Positions 30,387-62,644 of a stretch of DNA of 64,000 nucleotides are shown in pieces. Each line of letters begins with the position of its first letter. The stretch's first letter is position 1. Origin of the DNA: Nitrospirota bacterium (lineage in GTDB: Bacteria > Nitrospirota > Nitrospiria > SBBL01 > JAADHI01); the NCBI GenBank assembly GCA_029261135.1, contig JAJDBX010000006.1, forward strand, positions 1 to 64,000. The letters run 5' to 3'. The translations under genes were made by a program, and so were the position numbers. The notes beneath the pieces are model-generated. The model was given only the letters and a program-made list of their open reading frames with translations, ran no database searches and had not been told where the DNA came from.

Positions 30387-30959
30387 ATGAGGATAGCCGC
30401 CTTTTTCCCTGCCCTCACGGCCGCCTTTTTCGCTGCACAAACTCGGGCAGCCGATGTGACGTCTGCGCAGAAGGAAGATCTTCCAAAACAGCTCGTCGTG
30501 GGATGGGTCGAACGTGTGAAGATCTATCCCGGAGAATTTGTGTTGAAAGCGCGGATTGATACGGGCGCAAAGAGTTCATCCATCAATGCCCCGCATGCTA
30601 CAACCTTTCAGAAAAATGGGGAAACTTGGGTGCGTTTTGAATTGAGCGGACCAAAAGGAAAAGAGACCGTCCTGGTCGAAAAAAAAGTCGAACGCCGGGT
30701 CAAGATTAAGCGAAAAGGAGGGCCACCAAAGGAGCGCGTGGTGATCCGTTTAGCGGTTTGCCTTGGGAACCTGTTCAGAGAAATTGAGGTGAATTTGGCC
30801 GATCGGCGAGGCTTTAACTACCCCGTCCTTATCGGGCGACTCGATCTTGCAAATACATTTGATGTCCTGGTAAATTCACGCGTGAAGAATAGTCTCGCCC
30901 CAAGCTGTACTGCCCCTCTTCAAGCTGAGGCATCCACGGAAGCAGGCCCTCCTGAATAA
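30387..30959 (+). CDS. Exported retropepsin-like protease (ATP-dependent zinc protease family)
   Basis: 190 residues. A signal peptide ('MRIAAFFPALTAAFFAAQTRA') precedes a single retropepsin-like domain (formerly DUF785 / putative ATP-dependent zinc protease). 'VGWVERVKIYPGEFVLKARIDTGAKSSSINA' has the DTG(A) aspartic-protease triad, and 'RRGFNYPVLIGRLDL' closes the fold. A lysine/arginine loop ('VEKKVERRVKIKRKGGPPKERVV') is enlarged compared with the copy at 58221. It begins a three-gene set with an inactive transglutaminase/7TM protein and an ATP-grasp ligase, a conserved neighbourhood described for amidoligase systems. The periplasmic location and target are inferred. Confidence 0.8.
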   Translation: MRIAAFFPALTAAFFAAQTRAADVTSAQKEDLPKQLVVGWVERVKIYPGEFVLKARIDTGAKSSSINAPHATTFQKNGETWVRFELSGPKGKETVLVEKKVERRVKIKRKGGPPKERVVIRLAVCLGNLFREIEVNLADRRGFNYPVLIGRLDLANTFDVLVNSRVKNSLAPSCTAPLQAEASTEAGPPE

Positions 30960-30975
30960 TCGACATCTGTATGTA

Positions 30976-32475
30976 TTGGTTTTCATCCTGCTCTCTGCAG
31001 GATTGGGTTTGTTCTTTTTTAAGGTCGCTGTATTAGGTTTTCCGACCACGCCCGACACAGAGTCTGAAATATGGGATATTGAGGCCTCGATTTCCTTTGT
31101 TGCCAAAGACAAGCCGGTCAAACTTTCCCTCTATTTACCCCGAAATACCGAACACAATACGGTGGTCAATGAACAATTTCTATCCCGTGGCTACGGTTTG
31201 ATTTCCCGTCATGAACGTGGCAATCGACAAGCGGTCTGGTCCATTCGACAAGCCGTCGGAGAGCAAAACCTTTATTACCACGCGACAGTGCAACGTGAAG
31301 GGGCGCAGGGACGCCGCGTGTTCAAAAAGGTGCCTAAGATTGAACCTCCCAATTTTGAGGGGCCATTTTTAGAGGCGGCAAATGCCTTGGTCGCAGAAAT
31401 CGTTTCCGAATCGGCCGATGTCGACATTCTCGTGGCGGGACTTTTAAAACGGCTTCATGCAGATCAACCCAGTGACCATATCTCCTTGCTGCTAGGAAAA
31501 AAAGCAACCCTCGAAAAAAAACTACAGATCGCTGTGCGGATTTTGTCTTTACAAGGTTCGCCTGCCCGTGTGGCACACGGCATTCAGTTAAAAGAACAAG
31601 CACGGGATTTACCTTTGGTCCATTGGTTACAGGTGTTTAATGAAGGGAGTTGGTCCAATTATCACCCTGAGACTTACCAGTCCGAAATTCCAGAGGACTA
31701 TCTTTTGTGGTGGCATGGAGAAGATCGCATGTTCATTGCCAAAGGCGCAGACCAAACACGCGTGAAAATTTCGGTCAGTCTCAGCCTCGAGTCCGCAATC
31801 AATGCGCTTGTGGATCGGGGACAAGTTTTAACACCACAGCTCATGGCCTTCTCTCTTTTTAGTCTGCCCATTCATGCACAAACGACTTATCGCATTTTAT
31901 TGATGATTCCAATGGGAGCCTTGTTGCTCGTGTTTTTACGCAACATCGTCGGGGTCAAAACCTTTGGCACCTTTACCCCCGTCTTGATTGCCCTGGCTTT
32001 TCGAGAAACCGAACTCTTTTGGGGGCTTTTCTTTTTCAGCATGATGGTGGCCTTGGGTCTGAGTGTGCGCTTCTATTTGGAGCATTTGAAGCTCTTATTG
32101 GTGCCGCGCATTGCCTCTGTGTTGATTGTGGTTGTGCTCTTCATGGTGGGCTTCAGCATTGTTAGTCATAAACTGGGTCTGGTGCGAGGCTTGTCTGTGG
32201 CCATTTTCCCGATGGTGATTCTTACTATGACCATTGAGCGCATGTCTATTGTTTGGGAAGAACGCGGACCAAGCGAAGCCATGTCTCAGTGTTTTGGTAG
32301 CCTGATGGTGGCCTCTGCAGCCTATCTGCTCATGAATGTTAAAGTGATTGAACACTTACTGTTTGTGTTCCCCGAATTGCTCCTTGTTTGCCTTTCGGGT
32401 ACTTTGTTGATTGGCCGCTACAACGGCTACCGATTGACCGAATTAATTCGCTTCAAGGTTTTTACAAGGGCCTAA
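30976..32475 (+). CDS. Inactive transglutaminase-like domain fused to seven membrane helices
   Basis: About 499 residues from the TTG in the ORF track. The family usually begins a few residues earlier, and the frame is open upstream through 'NNRHLYVLVF', so the exact start is uncertain. One N-terminal membrane anchor ('VFILLSAGLGLFFFKVAVLGFP') is followed by a periplasmic domain to about residue 295 related to transglutaminases ('WLQVFNEGSWSNYHPETYQSEIPEDYLLWW') but without the catalytic Cys. From about residue 310 there are seven helices ('RILLMIPMGALLLVFLRNIVGVKTFGTFTPVLIALAF'). It matches the 'transglut_i_TM/7TM_transglut' pair that occurs with retropepsin and RimK-like ligases. Probably a membrane sensor or transporter for a tagged peptide. 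Confidence 0.82.
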   Translation: MVFILLSAGLGLFFFKVAVLGFPTTPDTESEIWDIEASISFVAKDKPVKLSLYLPRNTEHNTVVNEQFLSRGYGLISRHERGNRQAVWSIRQAVGEQNLYYHATVQREGAQGRRVFKKVPKIEPPNFEGPFLEAANALVAEIVSESADVDILVAGLLKRLHADQPSDHISLLLGKKATLEKKLQIAVRILSLQGSPARVAHGIQLKEQARDLPLVHWLQVFNEGSWSNYHPETYQSEIPEDYLLWWHGEDRMFIAKGADQTRVKISVSLSLESAINALVDRGQVLTPQLMAFSLFSLPIHAQTTYRILLMIPMGALLLVFLRNIVGVKTFGTFTPVLIALAFRETELFWGLFFFSMMVALGLSVRFYLEHLKLLLVPRIASVLIVVVLFMVGFSIVSHKLGLVRGLSVAIFPMVILTMTIERMSIVWEERGPSEAMSQCFGSLMVASAAYLLMNVKVIEHLLFVFPELLLVCLSGTLLIGRYNGYRLTELIRFKVFTRA

Positions 32476-32476
32476 T

Positions 32477-33421
32477 ATGCTTAAAACCCTGCAAGCCCTC
32501 AGAGAAAAAGGCGTGATAGGCATCAATCAACGCAATGCCGATTTCATTCTGCCCTACAACCCACGCCATCTTTATCCTCTGGTTGACGACAAACTCCGCA
32601 CAAAAAAGCTGGCTGCTGAAAAAGGCTTGGGGGTGCCAGAGTTGTACGGTGTGGTGGAGATCGTTCGACAAACACAGGATTTGCCGCAAGTGCTCGCGCC
32701 CTACGACGACTTTGTCATCAAGCCAGCGCATGGCAGTGGCGGGTCGGGCATCTTGATCGTATCGGGGCGACGAAAAAAACTCTTCCGAAAACCGAGCGGT
32801 GCCTTGCTGAAAGAAAGTGAAGTCATTCACCATGTCATCAATACTTTAAGTGGCATGTACAGCTTGGGCGGACATCCTGATTCGGCTTTGATCGAATATC
32901 GCATCCAAGTCGATCCGCTCTTGGAATCTATTTCATTTCAGGGTGTACCTGATATTCGGATTATTGTTTTCTTCGGCGTCCCTGTATTGTCGATGGTCCG
33001 CTTGCCCACGCGCCTCTCGAACGGCAAAGCCAATTTGCATCAGGGCGCCATTGGCGCGGGCGTGGATATTCCCAACGGTGTCACGCTCGATGCGGTTTCT
33101 TTCAATGACGTGGTCACAGAGCATCCCGACACAGGAAACCCGATTGCAGGCGTTTCCATTCCAGAATGGGACAAGTTATTGTATTTTGCCTCTCAATGTT
33201 ACGAATTGACCGGCCTCGGGTATCAAGGCATCGACATCGTTTTAGATAAAGACAAAGGCCCGCTGATTTTGGAACTGAATGCTCGTCCCGGCCTCAACAT
33301 TCAAATCGCAAATATGACGGGCCTCTTGCATCGACTGCGCTTGGTCGAAAAACACCGACACGAACTGGGCAGCGCAAAAACGCGCGTCGATTTCGCGAAA
33401 ACACAGTTTGCTCGAAAATAG
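32477..33421 (+). CDS. RimK-related ATP-grasp ligase (alpha-L-glutamate ligase-like)
   Basis: 314 residues of the family annotated as alpha-L-glutamate ligase-related. ATP-grasp elements: 'DDFVIKPAHGSGGSGILIV' (nucleotide loop), 'DIRIIVFFGVPVLSMVRLPTRLSNGKANLHQGAIGAGVDI' and 'GPLILELNARPGLNIQIAN', which holds the Mg ligands E and N. Such enzymes join an amino acid to a carboxylate using ATP. It starts 1 bp after the 7TM gene, so the three proteins are made together. The acceptor (a peptide, protein or small metabolite) is unknown. Confidence 0.85.
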   Translation: MLKTLQALREKGVIGINQRNADFILPYNPRHLYPLVDDKLRTKKLAAEKGLGVPELYGVVEIVRQTQDLPQVLAPYDDFVIKPAHGSGGSGILIVSGRRKKLFRKPSGALLKESEVIHHVINTLSGMYSLGGHPDSALIEYRIQVDPLLESISFQGVPDIRIIVFFGVPVLSMVRLPTRLSNGKANLHQGAIGAGVDIPNGVTLDAVSFNDVVTEHPDTGNPIAGVSIPEWDKLLYFASQCYELTGLGYQGIDIVLDKDKGPLILELNARPGLNIQIANMTGLLHRLRLVEKHRHELGSAKTRVDFAKTQFARK

Positions 33422-33525: not shown

Positions 33526-35418
33526 ATGGAAAGTCCCCACACCAGTTTTATTTTTGCCATCGCACTGGCCGCCGGCGTTTTTGCACAAAGCATCGCGCGT
33601 CATCTTCGTATTCCCGGCATCGTCATCCTGCTCGCTTTTGGAGTAATTCTCGGACAAGAAGGACTCGCTTGGGTGGTTCCGGAGTCTCTCGGAGCGGGTC
33701 TTTTTGCCATTGTGGATTTTGCGGTGGCAATTATTCTTTTTGAAGGGGGATTGAGTTTAGAAATCTCTCGGCTCCGACGTGAAGAATCGGCCATTCGCAA
33801 ACTGATCACCCTCGGGGCCCTGGTCACCTTGTTTGGCGGATGTGTGGCCGTCTTAGTTTTTCTGCAATGGTCTTTTAGTCTGGCGCTACTTTTTGGGAGC
33901 CTGGTGGTCGTCACTGGCCCCACTGTCGTGTCCCCGCTCGTGCGAAACCTTCGCCTTAAAACTAAAGTCAAAACTATTCTCGAAGCGGAAGGGGTCTTGA
34001 TTGATCCCATTGGCGCGATTCTAGCGGTACTCGTATTGGAAATTGTAATTACTCCCGACTTTTTGACTGTTGCCAGCGCCCTGGGCAATGTCGTCATTTG
34101 GCTTATTGTGGGGGCGCTCTCCGGGGTGGCCGGAGGACTTTTAGTCGGATGGCTGTTACGCCTGGGCACACTCATCCCCAAGGGATACGAAAATATTTTT
34201 ACCTTGGCATCTGTTCTATTGCTTTTCGAAGGCTCAAATCACCTGGTCTCACAGAGCGGAATTCTCGCGGTCACCATTTCCGGTGTCGTGGTGGGGAATA
34301 TGAAAACCTCGGTCGGACGGGAGCTTCGCGAATTTAAGGATCAGCTCACCGTGCTCCTGGTGGGACTGCTGTTTATTTTGCTTGCTGCGGATGTGCGTTT
34401 AGATGATATTCGCAATCTCGGATGGGCGGGTGCAGGGGTGATTGTCGTGCTGATCCTTATTGTGCGCCCGCTCAATGTTTGGGTTTCGACACGAAATTCG
34501 GATCTGAGTTTTCGGGAAAAGATTTTTATCGCCTGGATCGCGCCCAGAGGGATCATTGCTGCAGCCATTGCATCTCTGACAAGTGCAACCATGAATAACA
34601 TGGGGATTGATGGCGGAGATGACCTGAGGGCACTCGTTTTTTTAACCATCGCTTCTACAGTCTTCCTTGCAGGATTGACAGCCGGACCGCTGGCCATGCT
34701 ACTTGGCATTCGGCTTCCCGGCAGGGATCACATCGCCATTCTTGGCGCACGAGGCTTGGGCCTGCTTTTGGGAGAAGAATTTCGAAAATACAAGCGCACC
34801 GTCGTCTTTCTTGATTCTGATCCCAAACTTTGCGAGCAGGCCGAAGCAGCAGGTTTTCGTGTCGTTTTCGGAAATGCCTTAGAAGAACGGACGCTGCTTC
34901 GCGCGCGTTTCGAGTTGGTCGGCACCGTCATCGGGGTAACCTCTAACAACCACCTGAACAGCTCTTTTGTGAGCCAGGCGAAAAAGCTTTTTAAAGTCCC
35001 AAAATCTTATATCGCGGTGGATAAATTGAAGGAGGAACTCACCCCGGACTACATCCGAGGGCAAGGGGAAGATGTACTTTTTGAAGGACCGCATGACACG
35101 GAACGCTGGGATGTGCGTTTTCGCCACAAAGACTTAGCCGTCGAGCTTTTTTCTTTTTTCCCGATCATGAAGGGAGAGAGGAGCGAAAATCGGACCGAAC
35201 AGGAAAAACAGACAAAGGCCCTGAAAAACAGCGAGCAATTTGTCATGCTGACCGTCGAGCGTGGCGAGCTTATCTTTCCCATGTCGCTCGGTTTTAAAGC
35301 CAAGGAAGGGGATATTGCCTCCGTCGCGATTTATATGCCAGAGCGGGACACTGCATTACAGATGCTGCTTGAACTGGGTTGGCGCTTGACTACCAGCCCG
35401 CAGGAGGAGGATCAATGA
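33526..35418 (+). CDS. NhaP-type cation/proton antiporter with RCK domain
   Basis: 630 residues. About 12-13 membrane helices of the CPA1 family (residues 1 to about 400): 'AVAIILFEGGLSLEISRL', 'VVTGPTVVSPLVRNLRLK' and 'EAEGVLIDPIGAILAVL', the latter holding the ion-site Asp. A TrkA-N/RCK domain follows ('DHIAILGARGLGLLLGEEFRKYKRTVVFLDSDPKLCEQAEAAGF'), which would gate transport by nucleotide. It is probably a K+/H+ or Na+/H+ exchanger. It lies 104 bp after the ATP-grasp gene and before the DUF432/MscS pair, consistent with a role in ion homeostasis under osmotic stress. Confidence 0.88.
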   Translation: MESPHTSFIFAIALAAGVFAQSIARHLRIPGIVILLAFGVILGQEGLAWVVPESLGAGLFAIVDFAVAIILFEGGLSLEISRLRREESAIRKLITLGALVTLFGGCVAVLVFLQWSFSLALLFGSLVVVTGPTVVSPLVRNLRLKTKVKTILEAEGVLIDPIGAILAVLVLEIVITPDFLTVASALGNVVIWLIVGALSGVAGGLLVGWLLRLGTLIPKGYENIFTLASVLLLFEGSNHLVSQSGILAVTISGVVVGNMKTSVGRELREFKDQLTVLLVGLLFILLAADVRLDDIRNLGWAGAGVIVVLILIVRPLNVWVSTRNSDLSFREKIFIAWIAPRGIIAAAIASLTSATMNNMGIDGGDDLRALVFLTIASTVFLAGLTAGPLAMLLGIRLPGRDHIAILGARGLGLLLGEEFRKYKRTVVFLDSDPKLCEQAEAAGFRVVFGNALEERTLLRARFELVGTVIGVTSNNHLNSSFVSQAKKLFKVPKSYIAVDKLKEELTPDYIRGQGEDVLFEGPHDTERWDVRFRHKDLAVELFSFFPIMKGERSENRTEQEKQTKALKNSEQFVMLTVERGELIFPMSLGFKAKEGDIASVAIYMPERDTALQMLLELGWRLTTSPQEEDQ

Positions 35419-35817: not shown

Positions 35818-36645
35818 TTGAATGATTTGAAAAACGAGGTTGTGAGCACACAACAGGTGGAGATCAAACCCTGGTGGGGTGGGTTTTCCATGCCCCAAAA
35901 TCAAACCGGGTACTGGCAAATCGGCCCATTGAATCTATATATTCGTCGTGTCCGTCAGGAATGGCATGTCGCATCCGAATGTTTGCGAGATGTATTGGAT
36001 CGCACGCTTGATGTCTCTTTCAATGCCGAATTTCCCAACCGTCCCGACTTGGTGTTCTCTCGCTTTGCTTTTCGGGAAACGACAAAGAATCTGTCGATTT
36101 TACCGCAATTGTCAGACCGGGCTGTGGTCATTCGCCCCGAAGCCCCCCTCTACATTCCCGCCGGGGAAGAGGTCACTTTGTTTGTGAGTCTTCCCGTGTG
36201 GATTCGCATTGAAGCTGGAAACCCAGCCAAATTCCTACAGGAGCTCCCCATTTATCGGCCTTCAGATACCTGGTTTGGCCCCTCGACGCGTGAAGGAGAC
36301 TTGTGTTATGCCAGCCGGACCAGTGCACGTTTGAATGTAAACGATGTGCCTTTTCGTCCGCATCGTGCGGTGGCTTCCGTTGTGATTCGAAACGCCGCAG
36401 AGGATCCTTTATTTGTTGAACGACTCAATGTGACGGCCCAACACCTTTCACTCTTTGCGACCCCGGATGGCTACCTCTGGACGCAAGGCATGATTTTGGA
36501 GCGGGAAGAAGATGGAGAAGCCGTGCAAGTTCACTTTGAAAAGACCGCCCCCGCGGTTGCGAAAGACGCTGTCTTGCTCTCCGGTCCGCGCATTGATTCG
36601 GAAGACAATTTGCTGACACGCGCCTTTCACAATTTTTTTGCTTGA
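35818..36645 (+). CDS. DUF432-like protein paired with MscS
   Basis: About 275 residues from a TTG; the precise start is uncertain. A soluble, beta-rich protein with no signal or membrane helices. 'PWWGGFSMPQNQTGYWQIGPLNLYIRR', 'IPAGEEVTLFVSLPVWIRIE' and 'NVNDVPFRPHRAVASVVIRNAAEDPLFVERLNV' match the general layout of DUF432 proteins, which are often encoded beside mechanosensitive channels. It stops 22 bp before an MscS gene and probably forms an operon with it. A cytoplasmic partner of the channel is a reasonable guess; nothing biochemical is known. Confidence 0.65.
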   Translation: MNDLKNEVVSTQQVEIKPWWGGFSMPQNQTGYWQIGPLNLYIRRVRQEWHVASECLRDVLDRTLDVSFNAEFPNRPDLVFSRFAFRETTKNLSILPQLSDRAVVIRPEAPLYIPAGEEVTLFVSLPVWIRIEAGNPAKFLQELPIYRPSDTWFGPSTREGDLCYASRTSARLNVNDVPFRPHRAVASVVIRNAAEDPLFVERLNVTAQHLSLFATPDGYLWTQGMILEREEDGEAVQVHFEKTAPAVAKDAVLLSGPRIDSEDNLLTRAFHNFFA

Positions 36646-36667: not shown

Positions 36668-37546
36668 ATGAAAATGGTCATGGAGTTTTTGCAATCTGAT
36701 CAGGCCGCACTCGTGATTCGCGCAGCCATTATTTTTGTGCTCGGTCTTATTTTGGCCAAACCCATGAGTTCCGCAGTCGCGCGTTTATGCCTGAAACATG
36801 TCACCCCGCAGCAAGACATGCTGATCAAGCGTTTTTCTTATTACGCCATCGTGCTCATGGCGATCATCTCCGGTCTCAATGAGCTGGGCTTTCAATTGAG
36901 TGTGCTCTTGGGGGCAGCCGGTGTGCTGACCGTCGCGGTGGGTTTCGCGGCGCAAACTTCCGTGTCGAATTTGATCAGCGGTTTGTTTTTGATTGTGGAG
37001 CGCCCTTTCGGTGTGGGCGATGTGATTACGGTGGGGTCCACCACGGGAGAGGTGCTTTCGATTGATCTTTTATCCGTTAAGTTGAGAAAATTCGACAATC
37101 TTTTTGTGCGTATTCCCAACGAAACGCTTGTGAAGTCGGAAATCACCAACATCACCCAGTTTCCCATCCGTCGCATTGATCTCATTTTAGGCGTGGCTTA
37201 CAAAGAAGACCTCGAACGTGTTCAAGACATTTTATTTAAAATAGCGGATCGTAATCCCCTCTGTCTGGAAGAACCCGTGCCACTTTATATTCTTCAAGGA
37301 TTTGGTGATTCTGCTGTGAATATGCAGTTTTCGGTATGGGTGGCGCGTGCAAATTTCTTGGCGGTGAGAAACACGATCCAAACTGAAATTAAAAAAGTGT
37401 TTGACGCCGAAGGCATCGAGATTCCTTTTCCCCATCGCACACTCTATGCGGGCAGTGTCACCGAACCTTTTCCGGTGTGTGTTGTGGATCCTGCGTCGCT
37501 CACTTCTCCCGCTGTCCCACGGACGAAAAAGTCAGAATCAGACTAA
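36668..37546 (+). CDS. Small-conductance mechanosensitive channel (MscS family)
   Basis: 292 residues, the size of E. coli MscS. Three membrane helices, with the pore helix 'VLLGAAGVLTVAVGFAAQTSVSNLISGLFLIVERPFGVGDVITV' rich in Gly and Ala. The beta domain ('TTGEVLSIDLLSVKLRKFDNLFVRIPNETLV') and the alpha/beta C-terminal vestibule ('VFDAEGIEIPFPHRTLY') are complete. It opens in response to membrane tension after hypo-osmotic shock. The tail ends in a basic-acidic extension. It is directly downstream of the DUF432 gene. Confidence 0.92.
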   Translation: MKMVMEFLQSDQAALVIRAAIIFVLGLILAKPMSSAVARLCLKHVTPQQDMLIKRFSYYAIVLMAIISGLNELGFQLSVLLGAAGVLTVAVGFAAQTSVSNLISGLFLIVERPFGVGDVITVGSTTGEVLSIDLLSVKLRKFDNLFVRIPNETLVKSEITNITQFPIRRIDLILGVAYKEDLERVQDILFKIADRNPLCLEEPVPLYILQGFGDSAVNMQFSVWVARANFLAVRNTIQTEIKKVFDAEGIEIPFPHRTLYAGSVTEPFPVCVVDPASLTSPAVPRTKKSESD

Positions 37547-38041: not shown

Positions 38042-39349
38042 CTACAACATGCCCGAGAGTGCGGTTGCGATGCTGAGGAAGGCAAAAAAGCCGACAACAT
38101 CGGTGACGGTCGTTAGAATGATTGAAGACGATTGCGCGGGGTCTTGCCCCAAGGACGAGAGCACGATGGGGATGATGACGCCAGAGAGTGCGGCGGCCAA
38201 CATGGCAATCACCATCGAGACACCAATGACCAACATGAGCCCCACCGAACGGCTCCACACATAAACCCCTGCAGCGGTCATGAGCGCGATGGCAAGCCCA
38301 TTGATCGCGGCGGCACCGACCTCTTTTCGAACCACACGCAGCCACTGACTGCTTCCGATTTCACGCAATGCTAATCCGCGCATGGTTACCGCCAGGGCCT
38401 GGGCGCCGGTATTGCCGGATTGCCCCGCCACAACTGGAAGCAATACGGCTAAAGCCGTAAATTGGGCGATGAGGGCCTCAAACCAACCCACCACCGCAGC
38501 AGCGAGAAAAGCCGTAATGAGATTGATCGAAAGCCAAGGCAGGCGTTTTTGGACGACAAAGCACACACCAGAAAGCGCATGTTCGTCGCGGCTGGCCCCA
38601 ACCATGGTCAGCATGTCTGCGCTGCTTTCTTCCCGGACCGTGTCCATCAAGGCATCGTAAGGGATGATGCCAATGAGGCGGTTTGAAAGATCCACAACAG
38701 GCAGGTCGGTCACGTGGTGCTGCTTTAAGAGCTCACCAACTTCTTCCCGTGTGGCGGTTGCCGTGACCCGCGTCCGCACAGGTTTAGACAGAGACTGAAG
38801 GGATTCGGCGCCGTCGGCCATGGCCAGTTGATTCAGCTCGACCATGTGCTGCAATACCCCCGCGTCATCGATGATATAAAGCTGCCGCGTAAATCGGGGC
38901 CGGTATTTTCTAATCTGGTGCATTGCTTCACGCGCGGTCAGGGATTCTTGCAAAGGCAGAAAGTTGGTGTCCATCAAGCCGCCTGCACTTTCTTCCCGGT
39001 ACTGAACGAGGGATACTAATTCGCGCCGTCGTAGGCCATCCACCGAGGCCAGGGCCTGTTCGCGCAGCGCCTCAGAAAGACGGACCAGGACGCGGGCCGT
39101 CAGCACCGGATCGCCCCGATTCAAGAGGAATCGCGAGGCCGGTTCCGGTAGTTTTTTTAAAACTTCCGTGGCCACTTCCAAGGTTAGGCCGTCCCATAAG
39201 GCTACCATTTCTGCGACGGGTTGCAGGGTGAGTAGTACAACAATTTCGGTGATCGGCAAGGTGTTAATCGCCTGTTGCGCTTTTTCGGGATGAAGACGGA
39301 TGTAGGCTTGATTTAAGCTCTGAACCGCGTGCGTGGACTGGCCCGTCAC
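38042..39349 (-). CDS. mgtE: MgtE-type magnesium transporter
   Basis: 435 residues from a GTG that overlaps the upstream stop (GTGA). It has the MgtE_N superhelical domain (about residues 20-120), a CBS pair (about 130-250, 'QLYIIDDAGVLQHMVELNQL' and 'HHVTDLPVVDLSNRLIGIIPYDALMD'), and a five-helix transport domain with 'RLPWLSINLITAFLAAAVVGWFE' and 'VLLPVVAGQSGNTGAQALAVTMRGL', the latter carrying the conserved selectivity region. The cytosolic domains normally close the pore at high Mg2+. It is the last gene of an operon with a stand-alone MgtE_N/CBS paralogue and an MscS-like channel. Confidence 0.9.
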   Translation of the reverse strand: MTGQSTHAVQSLNQAYIRLHPEKAQQAINTLPITEIVVLLTLQPVAEMVALWDGLTLEVATEVLKKLPEPASRFLLNRGDPVLTARVLVRLSEALREQALASVDGLRRRELVSLVQYREESAGGLMDTNFLPLQESLTAREAMHQIRKYRPRFTRQLYIIDDAGVLQHMVELNQLAMADGAESLQSLSKPVRTRVTATATREEVGELLKQHHVTDLPVVDLSNRLIGIIPYDALMDTVREESSADMLTMVGASRDEHALSGVCFVVQKRLPWLSINLITAFLAAAVVGWFEALIAQFTALAVLLPVVAGQSGNTGAQALAVTMRGLALREIGSSQWLRVVRKEVGAAAINGLAIALMTAAGVYVWSRSVGLMLVIGVSMVIAMLAAALSGVIIPIVLSSLGQDPAQSSSIILTTVTDVVGFFAFLSIATALSGML

Positions 39350-40179
39350 TGTACTTCTCCTTTTTGAGTGCGTTCGTTACTCAGGATTCCGTCCAAAAGT
39401 TTCGCCAAGGTCAACCAATAGAGGCCCGTGAGCGAAAGCAGCCCATCCAAGCCGTCTTGTTGCACCACGGGATTTTCGCCCGTGCTGGCTTTTAAGCGCG
39501 TAAATTCCAGAACGCCGAGTAAAACGTTGTCTTTTCCAACGACAGGCAAATCGCGATGTGCCTCCCAAGCGGGTAGGGACAGCAGTTGATCCGTGCCCGT
39601 GTTGACGGAGATGGCATGGGTTTTTGGCGTCACTATTTCTTTAAGATTGGCCTTCGGATTGCAACTGAGCAAGGTGCCGACTAAGACAAAACCCTTCAGG
39701 CGATGGGCATCGTCCACTACATAAATTTCATTGCGGATCCGATAACGAAAACGCTTCACGCGCCGAAGCGCGTCGGATAGACTCAATCCCAGAGGCAACA
39801 TGTTAACTTCGATATTCATTAAATCGCCCGCGCACAAGCTTTCATAGTCGAGGAGGGATCGCATGCGACGACGTCTTTTTGTCGACAGGACCTCATCCAA
39901 GCACGTCTGTTTTTCAGGCGCGAGCAGCGCATAAATGCGTGCGGCCTGCTCAACGGGGACCTCAGTTAACAGTTTGGCCGAGAGGTTGTTTTCTAGTAAA
40001 GCAAGGGTCGTGCTTGCGGCTCCGGGCAGCATCGCCGCCAGCACGGGAACGACGTCTTTGGATGGCAGTTCAGAAAATAGCGCAGCGACATCGACCGAGG
40101 AAAGCAATTCCAAACTCCGGGCCGCTTCACTGGGGTAGCGAGAGAGAAATTCCAAGGTCAGTGGATTTGCGGTTTTCAT
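39346..40179 (-). CDS. Stand-alone MgtE_N/CBS regulatory protein
   Basis: 277 residues resembling the cytosolic half of MgtE without its membrane domain. An alpha-superhelical N-terminal part ('SSVDVAALFSELPSKDVVPVLAAMLPGAASTTLALLENN') is followed by a CBS pair ('DLMNIEVNMLPLGLSLSDALRRVKRF', 'RNEIYVVDDAHRLKGFVLVGTLL', 'DLPVVGKDNVLLGVLEFTRL'). The C-terminus is hydrophobic but shows no clear membrane helix. It ends in a 4-bp overlap with mgtE, so it is made with the full transporter and may act as an added Mg2+ sensor or heteromeric subunit. Such a split paralogue is uncommon. Confidence 0.82.
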   Translation of the reverse strand: MKTANPLTLEFLSRYPSEAARSLELLSSVDVAALFSELPSKDVVPVLAAMLPGAASTTLALLENNLSAKLLTEVPVEQAARIYALLAPEKQTCLDEVLSTKRRRRMRSLLDYESLCAGDLMNIEVNMLPLGLSLSDALRRVKRFRYRIRNEIYVVDDAHRLKGFVLVGTLLSCNPKANLKEIVTPKTHAISVNTGTDQLLSLPAWEAHRDLPVVGKDNVLLGVLEFTRLKASTGENPVVQQDGLDGLLSLTGLYWLTLAKLLDGILSNERTQKGEVQ

Positions 40180-40180
40180 T

Positions 40181-41035
40181 TTAGAGACCTTTGTCCGTTA
40201 ACATCGTGATGCGCTCATCGAACAGTTTTGCCGGCACATCCACGATATCGGAGGCTGACTCGATGATCACGCGCGACACGCCAATTTCAGTAATCCGCCC
40301 CTCCATCTCACCAATTTTGACTTTATCTCCGACGCGATAGAGTTTTCGCAGTTGATTCGCGGCAATGATGTTCGCGACATGGGTGCGTGCACCCAGGCCA
40401 AAAGCCAGCGCGATGCTACCCAAAAAGGCAGCCAGCACAATGCCGGTGACCAGCGACAGAAATTTGATATCAATCCCGATTTGATCAATGCCAATTACGG
40501 CCGCTGTGAACAAAATGGCCACTTGCGCAACCCGACCGAGCAGGTCTCCGTGGGCTGAATTTGCAGAGACCGCGGCAGATCGAACCAGGTCTCGCACCAG
40601 AAATCCCACGACAAAACCAGCCAACACAATCAGGACACCTGCGGCCGCGATCGGTAGGAAGTTCACCATTTCCCGGATCCACAGCCCGAAGACATCAAGG
40701 CCCAAAATTTCGGTCGCCAGCGTAATGGAAACAAGGATCACGAGCCAAAAAAACAACTCACCCAAAATAAAAAATGGTGGTCGGCGTGACTGGAGTTGTT
40801 CTAGCCCGCTTTTGGACATGAGCCGTTGCCACAATTGGTCGAGTCGCGCAATGACACGGACAAGCAGCGTGCGAATCAGCCGAGCGATCAGCCAGCCAAA
40901 GACCAATACAAGCAGCGCGATCGCCACGCGGGGAAGATAGGCAAATAACTTCGGGGTGAGGCTTTGTAGTCCTTCGTTCATTTCGTTCATTTCGTTCATT
41001 TCAAATCTCGATGGCACATATGCATTTCTCTCCAT
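40181..41035 (-). CDS. MscS-like channel with conserved TM helices
   Basis: About 284 residues. About five membrane helices, including 'VAIALLVLVFGWLIARLIRTLLVRVI' and 'FLPIAAAGVLIVLAGFVVGFLVRDLV', which match the 'conserved TM helix' repeats found N-terminal to some MscS-type channels. The final part 'AFGLGARTHVANIIAANQLRKLYRVGDKVKIGEMEGRITEIG' is the MscS beta domain. The MscS C-terminal vestibule is missing. The start is uncertain: an in-frame run of MNE codons (three 9-bp DNA repeats) offers three extra ATG codons. It is first in the operon with the MgtE_N/CBS protein (1-bp gap) and mgtE. Confidence 0.82.
   Translation of the reverse strand: MERNAYVPSRFEMNEMNEMNEGLQSLTPKLFAYLPRVAIALLVLVFGWLIARLIRTLLVRVIARLDQLWQRLMSKSGLEQLQSRRPPFFILGELFFWLVILVSITLATEILGLDVFGLWIREMVNFLPIAAAGVLIVLAGFVVGFLVRDLVRSAAVSANSAHGDLLGRVAQVAILFTAAVIGIDQIGIDIKFLSLVTGIVLAAFLGSIALAFGLGARTHVANIIAANQLRKLYRVGDKVKIGEMEGRITEIGVSRVIIESASDIVDVPAKLFDERITMLTDKGL
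40973..40999. repeat. Tandem 9-bp repeat at the start of the MscS-like gene
   Basis: Three exact copies of ttcgttcat. On the coding (minus) strand they encode Met-Asn-Glu three times, each copy adding an in-frame ATG. Slippage would change the length of the N-terminus in steps of three residues without a frameshift. Confidence 0.85.
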
Positions 41036-57996: not shown

Positions 57997-58220
57997 TGGC
58001 AAATTATAATCAAGACAGGTAATATGTCGACCTGAAAATAACGATACCAGACCAGGTTTATTATCAGCTGCCTTCCAAGTTGCCAGAAACCGCATGACAA
58101 TGTCCCAGGATTTCATTTATAAAAGCAAATTCACTGTATCATGTTTCAGGTTCACTTCTCTTACACTAGACTTTTCCTGGATGCTTATTATAGGATGTCA
58201 CTAGATTGTATAGGCTCTTG

Positions 58221-58697
58221 ATGCAAGAACAAATTAATTCCCAACAACCTCGTCCAACACTCGGATGGCGTGAATGGCTTTCTCTTCCTGATTTAAAAAT
58301 CGATGCCATTAAAGCAAAGGTGGATACGGGGGCACGCACTTCTGCACTTCACGCCTATTTTGTAGAAGAATTCAAAAAAGATGGTGAAGCCTATGTGCGT
58401 TTCAGCATCCATCCAATGCAAAAAGACAGTACTTCTTCCGTCAGCTGCGAAGCTAAAATCATTGACACGCGCCAAATCAAAGATTCCGGTGGACATGAAG
58501 AACAACGCATTCTCATTGCCACCCCGGTTCGGGTCGGCGAAGTCGAGTGGCTGGTCGAAATGACGCTCACCAATCGAGAAACGATGGGCTTTCGTATGCT
58601 TTTAGGGCGTACTGCCATCGAAAACCGATACTATGTGGATCCGGGTCGCTCCTATCTAAGTCGCCCCGAACCACTACTATCCCTCACATCCGAATAA
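58221..58697 (+). CDS. RimB-like retropepsin (ATP-dependent zinc protease family)
   Basis: 158 residues from the ATG at 58221; the ORF-track TTG is five codons earlier. No signal peptide, so it is cytoplasmic, unlike the copy at 30387. 'LGWREWLSLPDLKIDAIKAKVDTGARTSALHAYFVEEF' contains the retropepsin DTGA triad and 'TLTNRETMGFRMLLGRTAIE' closes the fold. In Pseudomonas the small protease RimB of the rimABK locus trims glutamate tails added by RimK; the same partner, RimK, starts 9 bp downstream here. A truncated duplicate of this gene lies at 29929. Confidence 0.85.
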   Translation: MQEQINSQQPRPTLGWREWLSLPDLKIDAIKAKVDTGARTSALHAYFVEEFKKDGEAYVRFSIHPMQKDSTSSVSCEAKIIDTRQIKDSGGHEEQRILIATPVRVGEVEWLVEMTLTNRETMGFRMLLGRTAIENRYYVDPGRSYLSRPEPLLSLTSE

Positions 58698-58706
58698 GGA
58701 CAATCT

Positions 58707-59612
58707 ATGAAAATTGGCGTTTTATCGCGTAATGCAAAACTATATTCAACCTCCCGGCTTGTAGAAGCCATCAAAGCAGCGGGTCACGAAGCACAGGTCA
58801 TTGACGTCACTCGATGTTATATGAATATTACTTCTCATAATCCGAGTATTCTTTTTAAAGGGAAAAAATTGGAAGGTTTTGATGCCGTCATTCCTCGGAT
58901 CGGCGCGTCAATAACATTTTATGGCACATCCGTTGTCCGTCAATTTGAGATGATGGGTGTCTACAGCGTCAATGAGTCGGTGGCGATCTCCCGGAGCCGA
59001 GACAAACTGCGCTCACTTCAATTGCTTGCCAGAAAAGGCGTCGGACTACCGGTCACCGGCTTTGCCCGCCGGCCGGATGACGTAGAAGGGGTTATCTCAA
59101 TGGTCGGAGGCGCACCCCTCGTGATCAAGCTGCTGGAGGGGACTCAAGGGATCGGGGTCGTCCTGGCCGAAACGGAGAACGCTGCGAAAAGCGTCATCGA
59201 AGCCTTTATGGGCGTCAAAACAAACATTTTGGTACAAGAATTCATCAAGGAAGCCGGGGGAGCCGATATCCGTTGTTTTGTCATTGGCGACAAAGTTGTC
59301 GCTGCCATGAAACGGCAGGGGGCAGAAGGCGACTTTCGTTCCAACCTGCACCGAGGCGGTTCCGCAGTCTTGATTAAACTGACGCCGGAGGAACGTAGCA
59401 CGGCCGTTCGCGCAGCCAGCATCATGGGACTCAACGTTGCCGGCGTTGATCTTTTAAGATCGAACCACGGACCCGTCGTGATGGAAGTGAATTCTTCTCC
59501 CGGCCTTCGCGGCATCGAAGCGGCAACAGATAAAGATGTCGCAGGCATGATTGTCTCCTTCATTGAAAAGAATGCAAAACCCTTCAAAACGAAAACGAGG
59601 GGACGTGGCTAA
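58707..59612 (+). CDS. rimK: RimK-type glutamate ligase
   Basis: 301 residues, the size of E. coli RimK. The N-terminal '[40 protein letters not shown]' and '[28 protein letters not shown]' are typical for RimK. The ATP-grasp region has '[19 protein letters not shown]' (nucleotide loop), '[28 protein letters not shown]' and '[20 protein letters not shown]' (Mg ligands). It adds glutamate residues to the C-terminus of a target, classically ribosomal protein S6. Its end overlaps the hydrolase gene by 8 bp, so protease, ligase and hydrolase are co-expressed. Confidence 0.92.
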
Positions 59613-60690
59613 AAAAACAAGCCCGACCCCGATGAGCATTAATGGTCACGACATCCCAGTCGGTCGTCGTACCGTGCTCGACCTCACCCTGACGAAGCTC
59701 TACACACAGGCAGATATCAGATTGCCCGTGCATGTCATTCGGGGTCGAAAACCGGGTCCCAAACTTTTTGTGAGCGCAGCCATTCATGGTGACGAAATCA
59801 ATGGCGTCGAAATCGTTCGCCGTCTATTGAGGATGCAGATGGTTAAACGTCTGCGAGGTGTGCTTATCGCCGTACCTGTGGTGAATGTGCACGGACTCAT
59901 TCATCAAAGTCGTTATTTGCCCGACCGAAGGGATCTCAATCGGAGTTTTCCAGGCTCCTCCGAAGGCTCCCTCGCTGGCCGCATGGCGAAATTTTTTGTG
60001 GATCATATCGTCAAAAATTCCACCCACGGCATTGATCTGCACACGGGTGCGGTCCACCGCGAAAACCTGCCGCAAATCCGGGCGAATTTAAAAGACCCCG
60101 AAACGAGGCGATTGGCCGATGCCTTCGGTGTGCCGGTCTTAATCGATTCTGAGTTGCGGGATGGTTCACTCCGGGAATATGCGAGCGAATGTGGTGTGCC
60201 CATGCTGCTTTACGAAGCCGGAGAGGCCCTTCGTTTCGACGAGCTTTCAATTCGTGCGGGTATTCGTGGCATCATTCAAGTCATGCGGGCGCTCGAGATG
60301 CTTCCTCCCGCGAAGGAAGTCAAAAAACAAAAAAAATTAGCATCACCCTTTGTGGCCAATACGAGTTTTTGGGTCAGGGCACCCGAGAGCGGCGTCCTGA
60401 GAGTGGAGGTCCCTTTAGGAGGACAAGTCCAACCCGGAGATCGCCTCGGGACCATCAGCAACCCTTTTGGGGAACAAGAAATAGGCGTCTTTTCAAAAAA
60501 GGCGGGCGTGGTGATTGGGAAAACGAATTTACCGCTGGTGAATGAAGGCGAAGCCCTCTTCCATATTGCCTGTTTTTCAAAACCGGGAGAAGTGGCCCAG
60601 CAATTGGGTGCCTTTACCGACCTGCACGACCTGAACGAACCCTTGCTGCCCCAACTTGAAGACAAAGATAAGGTTGGTCCGGGTGCCTAA
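59605..60690 (+). CDS. AstE/AspA-like zinc carboxypeptidase (succinylglutamate desuccinylase family)
   Basis: About 361 residues from GTG 59605, with GAGGGG upstream. It has the M14-like AstE/AspA fold: '[21 protein letters not shown]' supplies the first zinc His and Glu (HGDE), 'RDLNRSFPG' the substrate arginines and '[22 protein letters not shown]' the third zinc His. The C-terminal beta domain ('[34 protein letters not shown]') is biotinyl-like. Homologues beside rimK are often annotated as succinylglutamate desuccinylase; here it may remove or recycle glutamyl tags or a related amide. Confidence 0.87.
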
Positions 60691-60744: not shown

Positions 60745-61764
60745 CTACTTCCGTTTTACAATGCCTCTGAGTAACCTGCCCAAAATGTCGGCGCCCGTTA
60801 CAATCCTTTTTTCCTCATTCCAATACAAGATGATGTCGTTATCCACCACGTCGTCTTCGGCATGCTCCGGGTGCACTTTAAACTTAAGCAGCACTTCACC
60901 CAGTTTTGTGTCCGGATCAGTGACAACGATGGGCCGATGGCAGTAGAGGTAAGTACTTTTGACTTCCTTTGCGTACATTGCGTCGCGTAGAAACTGGTCT
61001 GCATTTAAAACAAGCAAGGGTTCTCCGGACTCATTCGTGATCACAACCCACTTCTCTTGTGAATGGTGAACCTGCTGCAAAAAAGCGTTGTCCTGCTCCC
61101 GGTCAATGTGTGGAAACAGCGGAAGACCTTTTTCATTTTGCGGCAGCTCAATGATGCTCGTAGGATTCAGTACCTCGCCTTCGTCGACGATTTCGACATC
61201 ATCCATCTTTAAAAAATTCACGGCACCGGTGCTTTCAAGCCGCTCAAGGTCAGTGACATCGGCATGCGCATGCTGCTCCAATAACACCTTGATTTCACTT
61301 TCTTTAAAATAGCCCACCTCTTCTTTGCCCAACCAGAAATCGAGTAGAAGACCTGTCGGCTTAGCGATCGGGTAGAGCAAGAACTGATAAAAGCGAATCA
61401 CCGGAACGAGAATGTTACTCGTTTTTAGCGCATGCCGTGCAAAATAGGCTTGCGGAATCACCTCACCGAAAAAAGTGATGCCCACGGTCGAAAAAAGAAA
61501 GGCCCCGACCCCGGCAAGAATCGATTCGCTCAGCAAGGCTAATAACACATTACTACTGACATTTCCCCACAAGAGCGTCGCTAAAAGGAGATGTGCATCT
61601 TCTCTGAGCTTGAGAATCCTTGAGGCCCCGGGATCTCCCATTTCAGCCTGGACTTCCAAGCGTAGGCGTGAGAGTCCAAAAAAGCCCAAATTAAGCCCTG
61701 AAAAAATAGCTGATTGCGTGATGCAGATAAAAATTCCAAGCCAACTAAGTGCGAGCAATGTCAT
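60745..61764 (-). CDS. CNNM/CorC-type transporter with CBS pair (hemolysin C-like)
   Basis: 339 residues from the ATG at 61764, with GAAGGAGG upstream; the longer ORF-track start (61980) is inside the MscS gene. The N-terminal DUF21/CNNM domain has four helices ('LALSWLGIFICITQSAIFSGLNLGFFGLSRLRLEV', 'ESILAGVGAFLFSTVGITFFGEVIPQAYFARHAL'), then a CBS pair ('VLNPTSIIELPQNEKGLPLFP', 'EKWVVITNESGEPLLVLNADQFLRDA'). The CorC_HlyC C-terminal domain is missing. CNNM proteins handle Mg2+ (and Co2+). It overlaps the upstream MscS gene by 20 bp. Confidence 0.85.
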   Translation of the reverse strand: MTLLALSWLGIFICITQSAIFSGLNLGFFGLSRLRLEVQAEMGDPGASRILKLREDAHLLLATLLWGNVSSNVLLALLSESILAGVGAFLFSTVGITFFGEVIPQAYFARHALKTSNILVPVIRFYQFLLYPIAKPTGLLLDFWLGKEEVGYFKESEIKVLLEQHAHADVTDLERLESTGAVNFLKMDDVEIVDEGEVLNPTSIIELPQNEKGLPLFPHIDREQDNAFLQQVHHSQEKWVVITNESGEPLLVLNADQFLRDAMYAKEVKSTYLYCHRPIVVTDPDTKLGEVLLKFKVHPEHAEDDVVDNDIILYWNEEKRIVTGADILGRLLRGIVKRK

Positions 61765-62644
61765 TTCCTCCTTTTTGTCCGACGAGCTTTTCGAGAGAAG
61801 GACTGGGATATAAATGCACATCCCTTTGCGGAAAAGGGATCGTAATCTCATTTTCTCGAAAGGCCTCAGCGATGGAAAAATTAATCTCGCTACGCAAGTT
61901 TTTTTGATTCTCAGGGTCTCCGGTCCAGACCAGTAGATCAAAATTGAGCGAAGAATCTCCGAATTCCAAAAACCGGACAACGGGTTTGGGCTGTTTTAAT
62001 ACCATTCCATTGGCGTGGGCCACCTCGATCAGCACATTCCGCACCTTTTTTTCGTCGGAACCATAGGCAACACCGACGGGACAATGGATTCGGATGCGCG
62101 GATCACCGACCGTCCAATTGGTCACCTCACCTTCGATAAATTTAGAATTGGGCACGATAATGGTGAGATGGTCGAAGGTTCTGACCGTCGTGGAGCGCAT
62201 GTTGATGCTCATCACTTCGGCTGTGCGATCATTGAGTGTCACCAAATCACCAACACCGATGGGACGTTCGACGAGCAAAATGACCCCCGAGATAAAGTTG
62301 GACGTCAGGTTTTGCAAACCAAAGCCGATGCCGACACTCAAAAAGCCAAAAATGATGGCGAGGCTGCTGAGTTTCAGACCCATTGATTCAGAAGCAATCA
62401 GGATGCCCACAACAATAAAAAAATAGTTGATGATGCGATTCATTGCATAAATCACCGATTTCGAAATTTTTTCTTTTTTTGAAAGCTGCTTAAACATAAT
62501 CCGTTGCACAATCTTGGAAAGTACAAGGGTCAGCATTATGATCAAGAACGCAGCTCCGATACCCCCTAAAGTCACTGCGGTCTCACCGATGCGAAAAAGT
62601 GGTACATTTAGCCACTTGACTTGGTTTTGGATTTCAGTTTTCAT
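61745..62644 (-). CDS. MscS-family mechanosensitive channel
   Basis: 299 residues. Three membrane helices, with the pore helix in 'SLAIIFGFLSVGIGFGLQNLTSNFISGVILLVERPIGVGDLVTLNDRTAEVMSINMRSTTVRTFDHLTIIVPNSKFIEGEVTNW' and a C-terminal vestibule ('FRENEITIPFPQRDVHLYPS'). The protein is a different lineage from the copy at 36668 (conserved GFGLQN rather than GFAAQT). It precedes and overlaps the CNNM gene, suggesting joint production of a tension-gated channel and a divalent cation transporter. Confidence 0.9.
   Translation of the reverse strand: MKTEIQNQVKWLNVPLFRIGETAVTLGGIGAAFLIIMLTLVLSKIVQRIMFKQLSKKEKISKSVIYAMNRIINYFFIVVGILIASESMGLKLSSLAIIFGFLSVGIGFGLQNLTSNFISGVILLVERPIGVGDLVTLNDRTAEVMSINMRSTTVRTFDHLTIIVPNSKFIEGEVTNWTVGDPRIRIHCPVGVAYGSDEKKVRNVLIEVAHANGMVLKQPKPVVRFLEFGDSSLNFDLLVWTGDPENQKNLRSEINFSIAEAFRENEITIPFPQRDVHLYPSPSLEKLVGQKGGNDIART

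Follow-up and report, generated by a model that had tools for sequence, protein, structure and literature searches.

The window analyzed here, a stretch of 64,000 nucleotides from a Nitrospirota bacterium (contig JAJDBX010000006.1, positions 1 to 64,000), contains at positions 30387–33421 three co-directed genes that encode, in the order A-B-C, an exported retropepsin, a membrane protein in which a transglutaminase-fold domain is joined to seven membrane helices (7TM), and an ATP-grasp ligase. The same three-gene set has been described in Pseudomonas aeruginosa and named rloABC (Lormand et al., mBio 2025; PMC12239564). Since the catalytic and arginine residues of RloA, a cysteine pair, the domain content and the gene order all match, the set of the window is classified here as rloABC-type and, judging from these sequence features, it is a distant relative of the Pseudomonas operon, of a kind known since 2025 that extends here to a distant lineage. 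The NCBIfam cut-offs set for the Pseudomonas proteins RloA, RloA2, RloA3 and RloB are missed (105 against 210 bits for RloA3, 95 against 280 for RloA and 456 against 900 for RloB) and therefore we speak of a homologous system and do not claim the status of Pseudomonas equivalogs. An earlier reading of the DNA, made from the sequence alone and called here the original prediction, had named the three genes in this order, and profile matches confirm the families that it assigned to them (DTGA retropepsin, dead transglutaminase-7TM protein and ATP-grasp ligase); the compartments that it claimed, with the protease in the periplasm, the 7TM protein in the membrane and the ligase in the cytosol, are likely.

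The work on P. aeruginosa provides the functional frame for these genes. Crystals of RloA revealed a dimeric retropepsin, and the enzyme cleaves runs of at least eight consecutive glutamates, for which R114 and R137 are required both in vitro and in vivo (PMC12239564). When all three RloA proteases of this organism are lost, the cells do not grow without salt, and deletion of rloB or rloC rescues them; in fact, rloB and rloC belong to one pathway with rloA in low-osmolarity survival, and phenotypes in cell shape and toward beta-lactams have also been reported (PMC12239564). Insertions in PA1766-PA1768 were recovered in an exopolysaccharide suppressor screen (PMC7314104). In Pseudomonas, survival at low salt, cell shape, biofilm and tolerance to beta-lactams are under the control of rlo, and the comparison of variant architectures, which is the addition of the present analysis on mechanism, turns this system into a concrete and testable model. 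The original prediction had considered both substrate and purpose as not established, a view that overlooks the genetics and the poly-glutamate cleavage published in 2025 (PMC12239564) but holds for the native product.

The RloA of the window, 190 amino acids long, begins with a signal-like segment (recognized by visual inspection), carries the DTGA motif at D58 and matches by sequence the solved RloA-type structures 9g58, 9g59 and 2pma (E 3e-21 to 5e-14). D58, R117 and R140 are the equivalents of D48, R114 and R137 of the P. aeruginosa protein; the catalytic aspartate and the arginine pair are invariant in all 24 distinct homologues, and the cysteine pair, C125/C174 in the window, is kept in 21 of them. 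For RloB, the AlphaFold model (predicted local distance difference test, pLDDT, 78; predicted template modeling score, pTM, 0.53) starts with a single helix, followed by a mixed alpha/beta domain (residues 32–269) and, beginning near residue 299, by a membrane domain built of helices; P335, E421 and R422 of RloB are invariant. When this model was searched with Foldseek, a significant match was obtained for the middle domain alone, with 3isr, a transglutaminase-like protease (E 1e-9); in the window the column of the catalytic cysteine is occupied by leucine and that of the histidine by valine, and the domain is, to judge from its residues, dead. RloC is recognized by TIGR02291 above the cut-off of that family. 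The PF14401 (RLAN) profile has no match in the genome of the window, and none in the controls either.

The start of rloB deserves a comment. The listed open reading frame (ORF) opens at TTG 30976, which leaves the 16-bp gap to rloA given in the original prediction. The frame upstream of this codon reads LNNRHLYVLVF from CTG 30952, and the RloB proteins of relatives from the same genus and family begin at that point, with MNNRHLY or MNRRHFY, so that the true start is probably CTG 30952 and the gap a start-codon artefact. With this start the gene would overlap rloA by 8 bp, the overlap being of 4 bp in the same-genus relatives. The second gap that had been predicted, 1 bp between rloB and rloC, stands.

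The evidence on mechanism comes from loci in which the same membrane domain is combined with other partners. In RloB relatives without RloA at the locus, the transglutaminase cysteine and histidine are intact in five cases of five, against none of 18 where RloA is present. These RloA-less loci (L030–L034) encode an RloB relative that matches the transglutaminase core PF01841 with 61–70 bits (4/4 scanned), and in the four of the five with enough DNA the order is the same: transglutaminase-7TM protein, ATP-grasp protein, TPR protein and a signal-bearing beta protein. The TPR protein has one N-terminal hydrophobic segment, and the beta protein is modeled by AlphaFold as a 16-strand barrel (pLDDT 70, pTM 0.68) whose structural matches are channels of the outer membrane, among them AlgE, the exporter of alginate (E 1e-7), with ordinary porins and FadL also among the top PDB matches. 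It is possible that these loci represent a candidate polymer export system, and the culture fluid of their hosts would be a simpler place to seek the product.

Two further arrangements are found. At L064 (7545–11392) a retropepsin is fused to the 7TM domain (PF05618, Asp_protease_2, PF14402), together with an ATP-grasp gene, a separate RloA-like gene and a barrel that scores 300 bits against the barrel profile of the RloA-less loci; no other retropepsin-7TM fusion was found in 231 genomes of the same class or on plasmids, and L064 is the sole copy found. On a plasmid of Halobacterium sp. DL1 (L038, 7848–9602, where the table of the collection has no gene annotated at the fusion), the 7TM domain and the ATP-grasp domain are united in one protein of 584 amino acids and the transglutaminase is absent. 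The barrel family follows the variants: among 28 genomes searched, it occurs in all six that carry an RloA-less locus or the retropepsin fusion and is missing from the other 22; the genome of the window does not have it either. As a separate observation, a gene annotated as RimK family on a plasmid of Natrononativus amylolyticus (L067, 3050–4357) has a C-terminal stretch resembling the retropepsin domain of L064, and may possibly encode a ligase-retropepsin fusion.

The membrane domain PF14402 was found in 20 of 270 genomes of the class of the window, one of them below the family cut-off, and in 21 of 396 genomes in a draw of the phylum; genome G014 has a weak match, and another weak match, in G544, was rejected as an unrelated membrane protein with TPR-like repeats. 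In the RloC tree the window groups with its own genus and family (100/97) and the operon is thus native to this lineage. The three genes travel together, as the original prediction implied, because all 18 type-1 RloB proteins tabulated come from loci with both RloA and RloC. A scan for RloB in the contig collection returned one locus, L001 (Pseudomonadales), the other loci being derived from whole-genome searches, and no RloB was found in phage records. Genome G255 holds two full rloABC operons of different subclades (L024 and L027), and in G400 the rloB gene is split across several frames (L049, 9501–11052, minus strand), which points to a disrupted gene or to a fault in the assembly. In the same genus, at L026 (5671–7910, minus strand), a histidine kinase and an OmpR-type regulator lie divergent from rlo, an arrangement reminiscent of Vibrio, where VxrAB controls the rlo genes.

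The genes surrounding the operon in the window are listed in Table 1. NhaP starts 104 bp downstream of rloC and DUF432 lies 399 bp past NhaP, and both are neighbors of rlo that do not obviously share a single transcript with it. A consensus scan for promoters and terminators found fewer sites than in shuffled sequence and was uninformative.

Table 1. The rloABC-type operon of the window and the genes that follow it.
Feature	Position	Strand	Evidence
rloA-like, exported retropepsin	30387..30959	+	PF05618 110 bits (cut-off 27); solved homologues; residue conservation in 24 distinct homologues
rloB-like, one transmembrane helix, inactive transglutaminase-fold domain and 7TM	30952..32475 (probable start)	+	PF14400 144 bits; PF14402 330 bits; model; fold match
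rloC-like, cytosolic ATP-grasp ligase	32477..33421	+	TIGR02291 456 bits (cut-off 314); PF14397 302 bits
Neighbor, cation/proton antiporter (NhaP) with TrkA_N domain	33526..35418	+	PF00999; PF02254
Neighbor, DUF432 protein	35818..36645	+	PF04254 21.1 bits (barely above cut-off 21)
Neighbor, MscS-type mechanosensitive channel	36668..37546	+	PF00924 73 bits
Neighbor block: MgtE, second MgtE-N/CBS protein, MscS-like protein	38042..41035	-	

Over the rlo loci as a whole, a gene with an MscS domain lies within 5 kb of 6 out of 19 (18 genomes), against 0.33 expected (p ~5e-7), and without the genome of the window within 5 kb of 5 out of 18, in five genera, against 0.31 expected (p ~9e-6); these values assume random placement and independent loci and are too small, because MscS genes also cluster with each other. 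Within 10 kb of the RloB 7TM domain the count is again 6 of 19, against 0.69 expected, and in a control with antiporters as anchor genes MscS was near 3 of 51, against 1.8 expected. A locus outside this count, L065, has a 745-amino-acid MscS-domain channel 1.1 kb upstream of rloA. The enrichment of antiporters is weak: they are found within 10 kb of 3 of the 19 loci, against 0.26 expected, and of 2 of the 18 when the window is excluded (p ~0.02). In relatives of the same genus (L025, L026) and of the same family (L035), rlo is not accompanied by counterparts of the NhaP, DUF432 and MscS genes of the window, so the synteny with them, which the original prediction had named as a check, is not conserved. 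The block of MgtE, MgtE-N/CBS and MscS-like genes recurs in L020, from another family, where it follows rloC directly. An osmotic theme of the neighborhood is supported, but the particular NhaP/DUF432/MscS cassette is not. The osmotic link as such, drawn by the same prediction, gains from this enrichment and from the role of the homologous operon of P. aeruginosa in low-osmolarity survival (PMC12239564).

Gene content, the lost active site, the conserved residues of RloA and the variant architectures are direct observations, and together with the published epistasis they lead to a model in which RloC makes an acidic chain, RloB moves it across the inner membrane and RloA cuts it. This is our leading explanation, to which we give about an even chance. 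Two unrelated hydrolase folds are exchanged on the 7TM domain and, among the RloB proteins, the transglutaminase is dead only beside RloA, as would be expected if the 7TM domain delivers something to be cut on the far side; the fusion of 7TM and ligase links delivery to synthesis, and the TPR and barrel partners suggest that in the RloA-less and retropepsin-fusion variants something leaves the cell. RloC would join acidic amino acids in the cytosol, probably alpha-linked glutamate, in a chain that is free or carrier-bound; the 7TM domain of RloB would pass it through the inner membrane, with the transglutaminase-fold domain at the periplasmic exit, and RloA would cleave it in the periplasm. 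The chain may act as a polyanion of the periplasm that can be removed again and that sets the osmolarity there or the mechanics of the wall, comparable to the periplasmic glucans, and would be harmful in dilute medium if left uncut; the rescue by deletion of rloB or rloC is expected if these two proteins supply the substrate of RloA. The transglutaminase domain of RloB could be what remains of a built-in hydrolase that RloA has since replaced. A wider generalization, which we hold more tentatively and consider somewhat doubtful, is that the PF14402 7TM domain is the membrane conduit of widespread and undescribed prokaryotic poly-amino-acid systems, fed by an ATP-grasp ligase and equipped with a far-side hydrolase (a live transglutaminase, a fused retropepsin, or RloA beside a dead transglutaminase), some of which would export their product through TPR and barrel proteins while rlo would keep a periplasmic osmoregulatory polyanion.

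Several points weigh against this model. The synthesis by RloC, the transport by RloB and the identity of the chain are parts that we infer. RloC is without the N-terminal domain of RimK (no PF18030 match), and the membrane domain of RloB has no solved relative in the Foldseek search, so that the fold gives transport no support. Homology of the 7TM domain to CapC/PgsC (PF14102), a subunit of poly-gamma-glutamate synthase, is not significant: in hhalign the probability is at most 4.6 and the reversed 7TM profile outscores CapC, and with CapC sequences taken from genomes of the phylum, CapC ranked first among the non-RloB ORFs for the 7TM profile, but with an E of 1.3. The RloA-less type is one clade, and the correlations among the variants rest on very few evolutionary events and are overstated by Fisher tests. 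The fusion at L064 is a single locus and is accompanied by a separate RloA, which a simple replacement would not predict.

Other explanations for the same genes have to be weighed against a chain made by RloC, moved by RloB and cut by RloA. RloC could attach glutamate, or a residue like it, to a protein of the envelope, a lipid or a peptidoglycan precursor, with RloB handling or flipping the acceptor and RloA trimming the tag, thus transferring the logic of RimK and RimB to the envelope. RloC and RloA are in fact homologues of RimK and RimB, the enzymes that extend and shorten the glutamate tail on ribosomal protein S6, RloA cleaves poly-glutamate on proteins in vitro, and the phenotypes in cell shape and toward beta-lactams direct attention to the wall (PMC12239564). 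However, with a cytosolic ligase and a periplasmic protease the acceptor has to cross the membrane, no conserved acceptor gene was found beside rlo in the loci examined, and the barrel and TPR partners of the variants suggest a release from the cell; we consider this explanation rather unlikely, although it is the strongest of the competitors. Alternatively, RloB could be a receptor in which the dead transglutaminase binds a periplasmic peptide ligand and the membrane domain signals to RloC, while RloA degrades the ligand. Dead enzyme domains often act as binding modules, and the epistasis of rloB and rloC to rloA (PMC12239564) fits such an arrangement as well, but in relatives this place is taken by a live transglutaminase or by a retropepsin domain, the haloarchaeal fusion is without any extracytoplasmic domain, and no signaling output domain is present, making a receptor improbable. 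With regard to the original prediction that the 7TM protein senses or moves the product, the variants, as far as sequence can tell, favor moving over sensing and leave both as candidate roles.

The least probable explanation, to which we give very little credit, is the one closest to the original prediction, in which the operon yields a small osmolyte precursor or a signal and forms one volume-control cassette with the adjacent NhaP and DUF432/MscS genes. These genes are adjacent in the window, and the counts given above for MscS (6/19 within 5 kb) and for antiporters (3/19 within 10 kb) exceed expectation. Relatives in the same genus and family do not share the arrangement, though, the antiporter signal fades when the window is left out, and different MscS relatives at different positions indicate a theme of the neighborhood and no single cassette. 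A small molecule is also at odds with a protease that cleaves at least eight glutamates (PMC12239564), and the synteny results already weaken this part of the prediction.

Among the known systems that can be compared with rlo, the alginate exporter AlgK-AlgE resembles the RloA-less relatives, and not the window, in having a TPR protein and an outer-membrane barrel beside an inner-membrane apparatus; it differs in that the barrel of the relatives also matches porins and FadL, so that the fold does not tell its function, and the genome of the window is without the barrel. The poly-gamma-glutamate synthases PgsBCA/CapBCA share with rlo the combination of a ligase and a small membrane protein, and CapC and the rlo 7TM domain have similar proline-centered motifs, at a spacing of 77 against 79 residues, a resemblance that we regard as a lead, but PgsB is of the Mur-ligase type whereas the rlo ligase is an ATP-grasp enzyme. 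A tandem pair of CapC-like domains was observed in one open frame of 1086 amino acids on the minus strand of L060 (approximately 886–1938).

RimB-RimK is a homologous pair of retropepsin and ATP-grasp ligase, and the window contains a separate pair of this kind at 58206–59612 (PF18030 151 bits, PF08443 226 bits). Unlike the rlo proteins, RimB lacks a signal peptide, the pair is not accompanied by a 7TM protein, and RimK carries a pre-ATP-grasp domain at its N-terminus. The rim-type locus of the window (58206–60690 on the plus strand and 61745–62644 on the minus strand) encodes a signal-less RimB-like retropepsin, a RimK and a protein similar to AstE/aspartoacylase, and an MscS gene lies at a distance of about 3.9 kb. 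In the 18 genomes, MscS occurs within 4 kb of 6 of the 10 PF05618 genes located outside rlo, 0.21 being expected within 5 kb.

The system most similar to the set of the window is rloABC of P. aeruginosa itself. It differs in its distant lineage, in its neighboring genes and in its complement of proteases, since P. aeruginosa has three secreted RloA proteins in addition to RimB and the genome of the window two PF05618 proteases, one RloA and one RimB-like. The two share the gene order and the domain content, a secreted DTGA retropepsin with the poly-glutamate residues and the cysteine pair, a dead transglutaminase-7TM protein and an ATP-grasp ligase.

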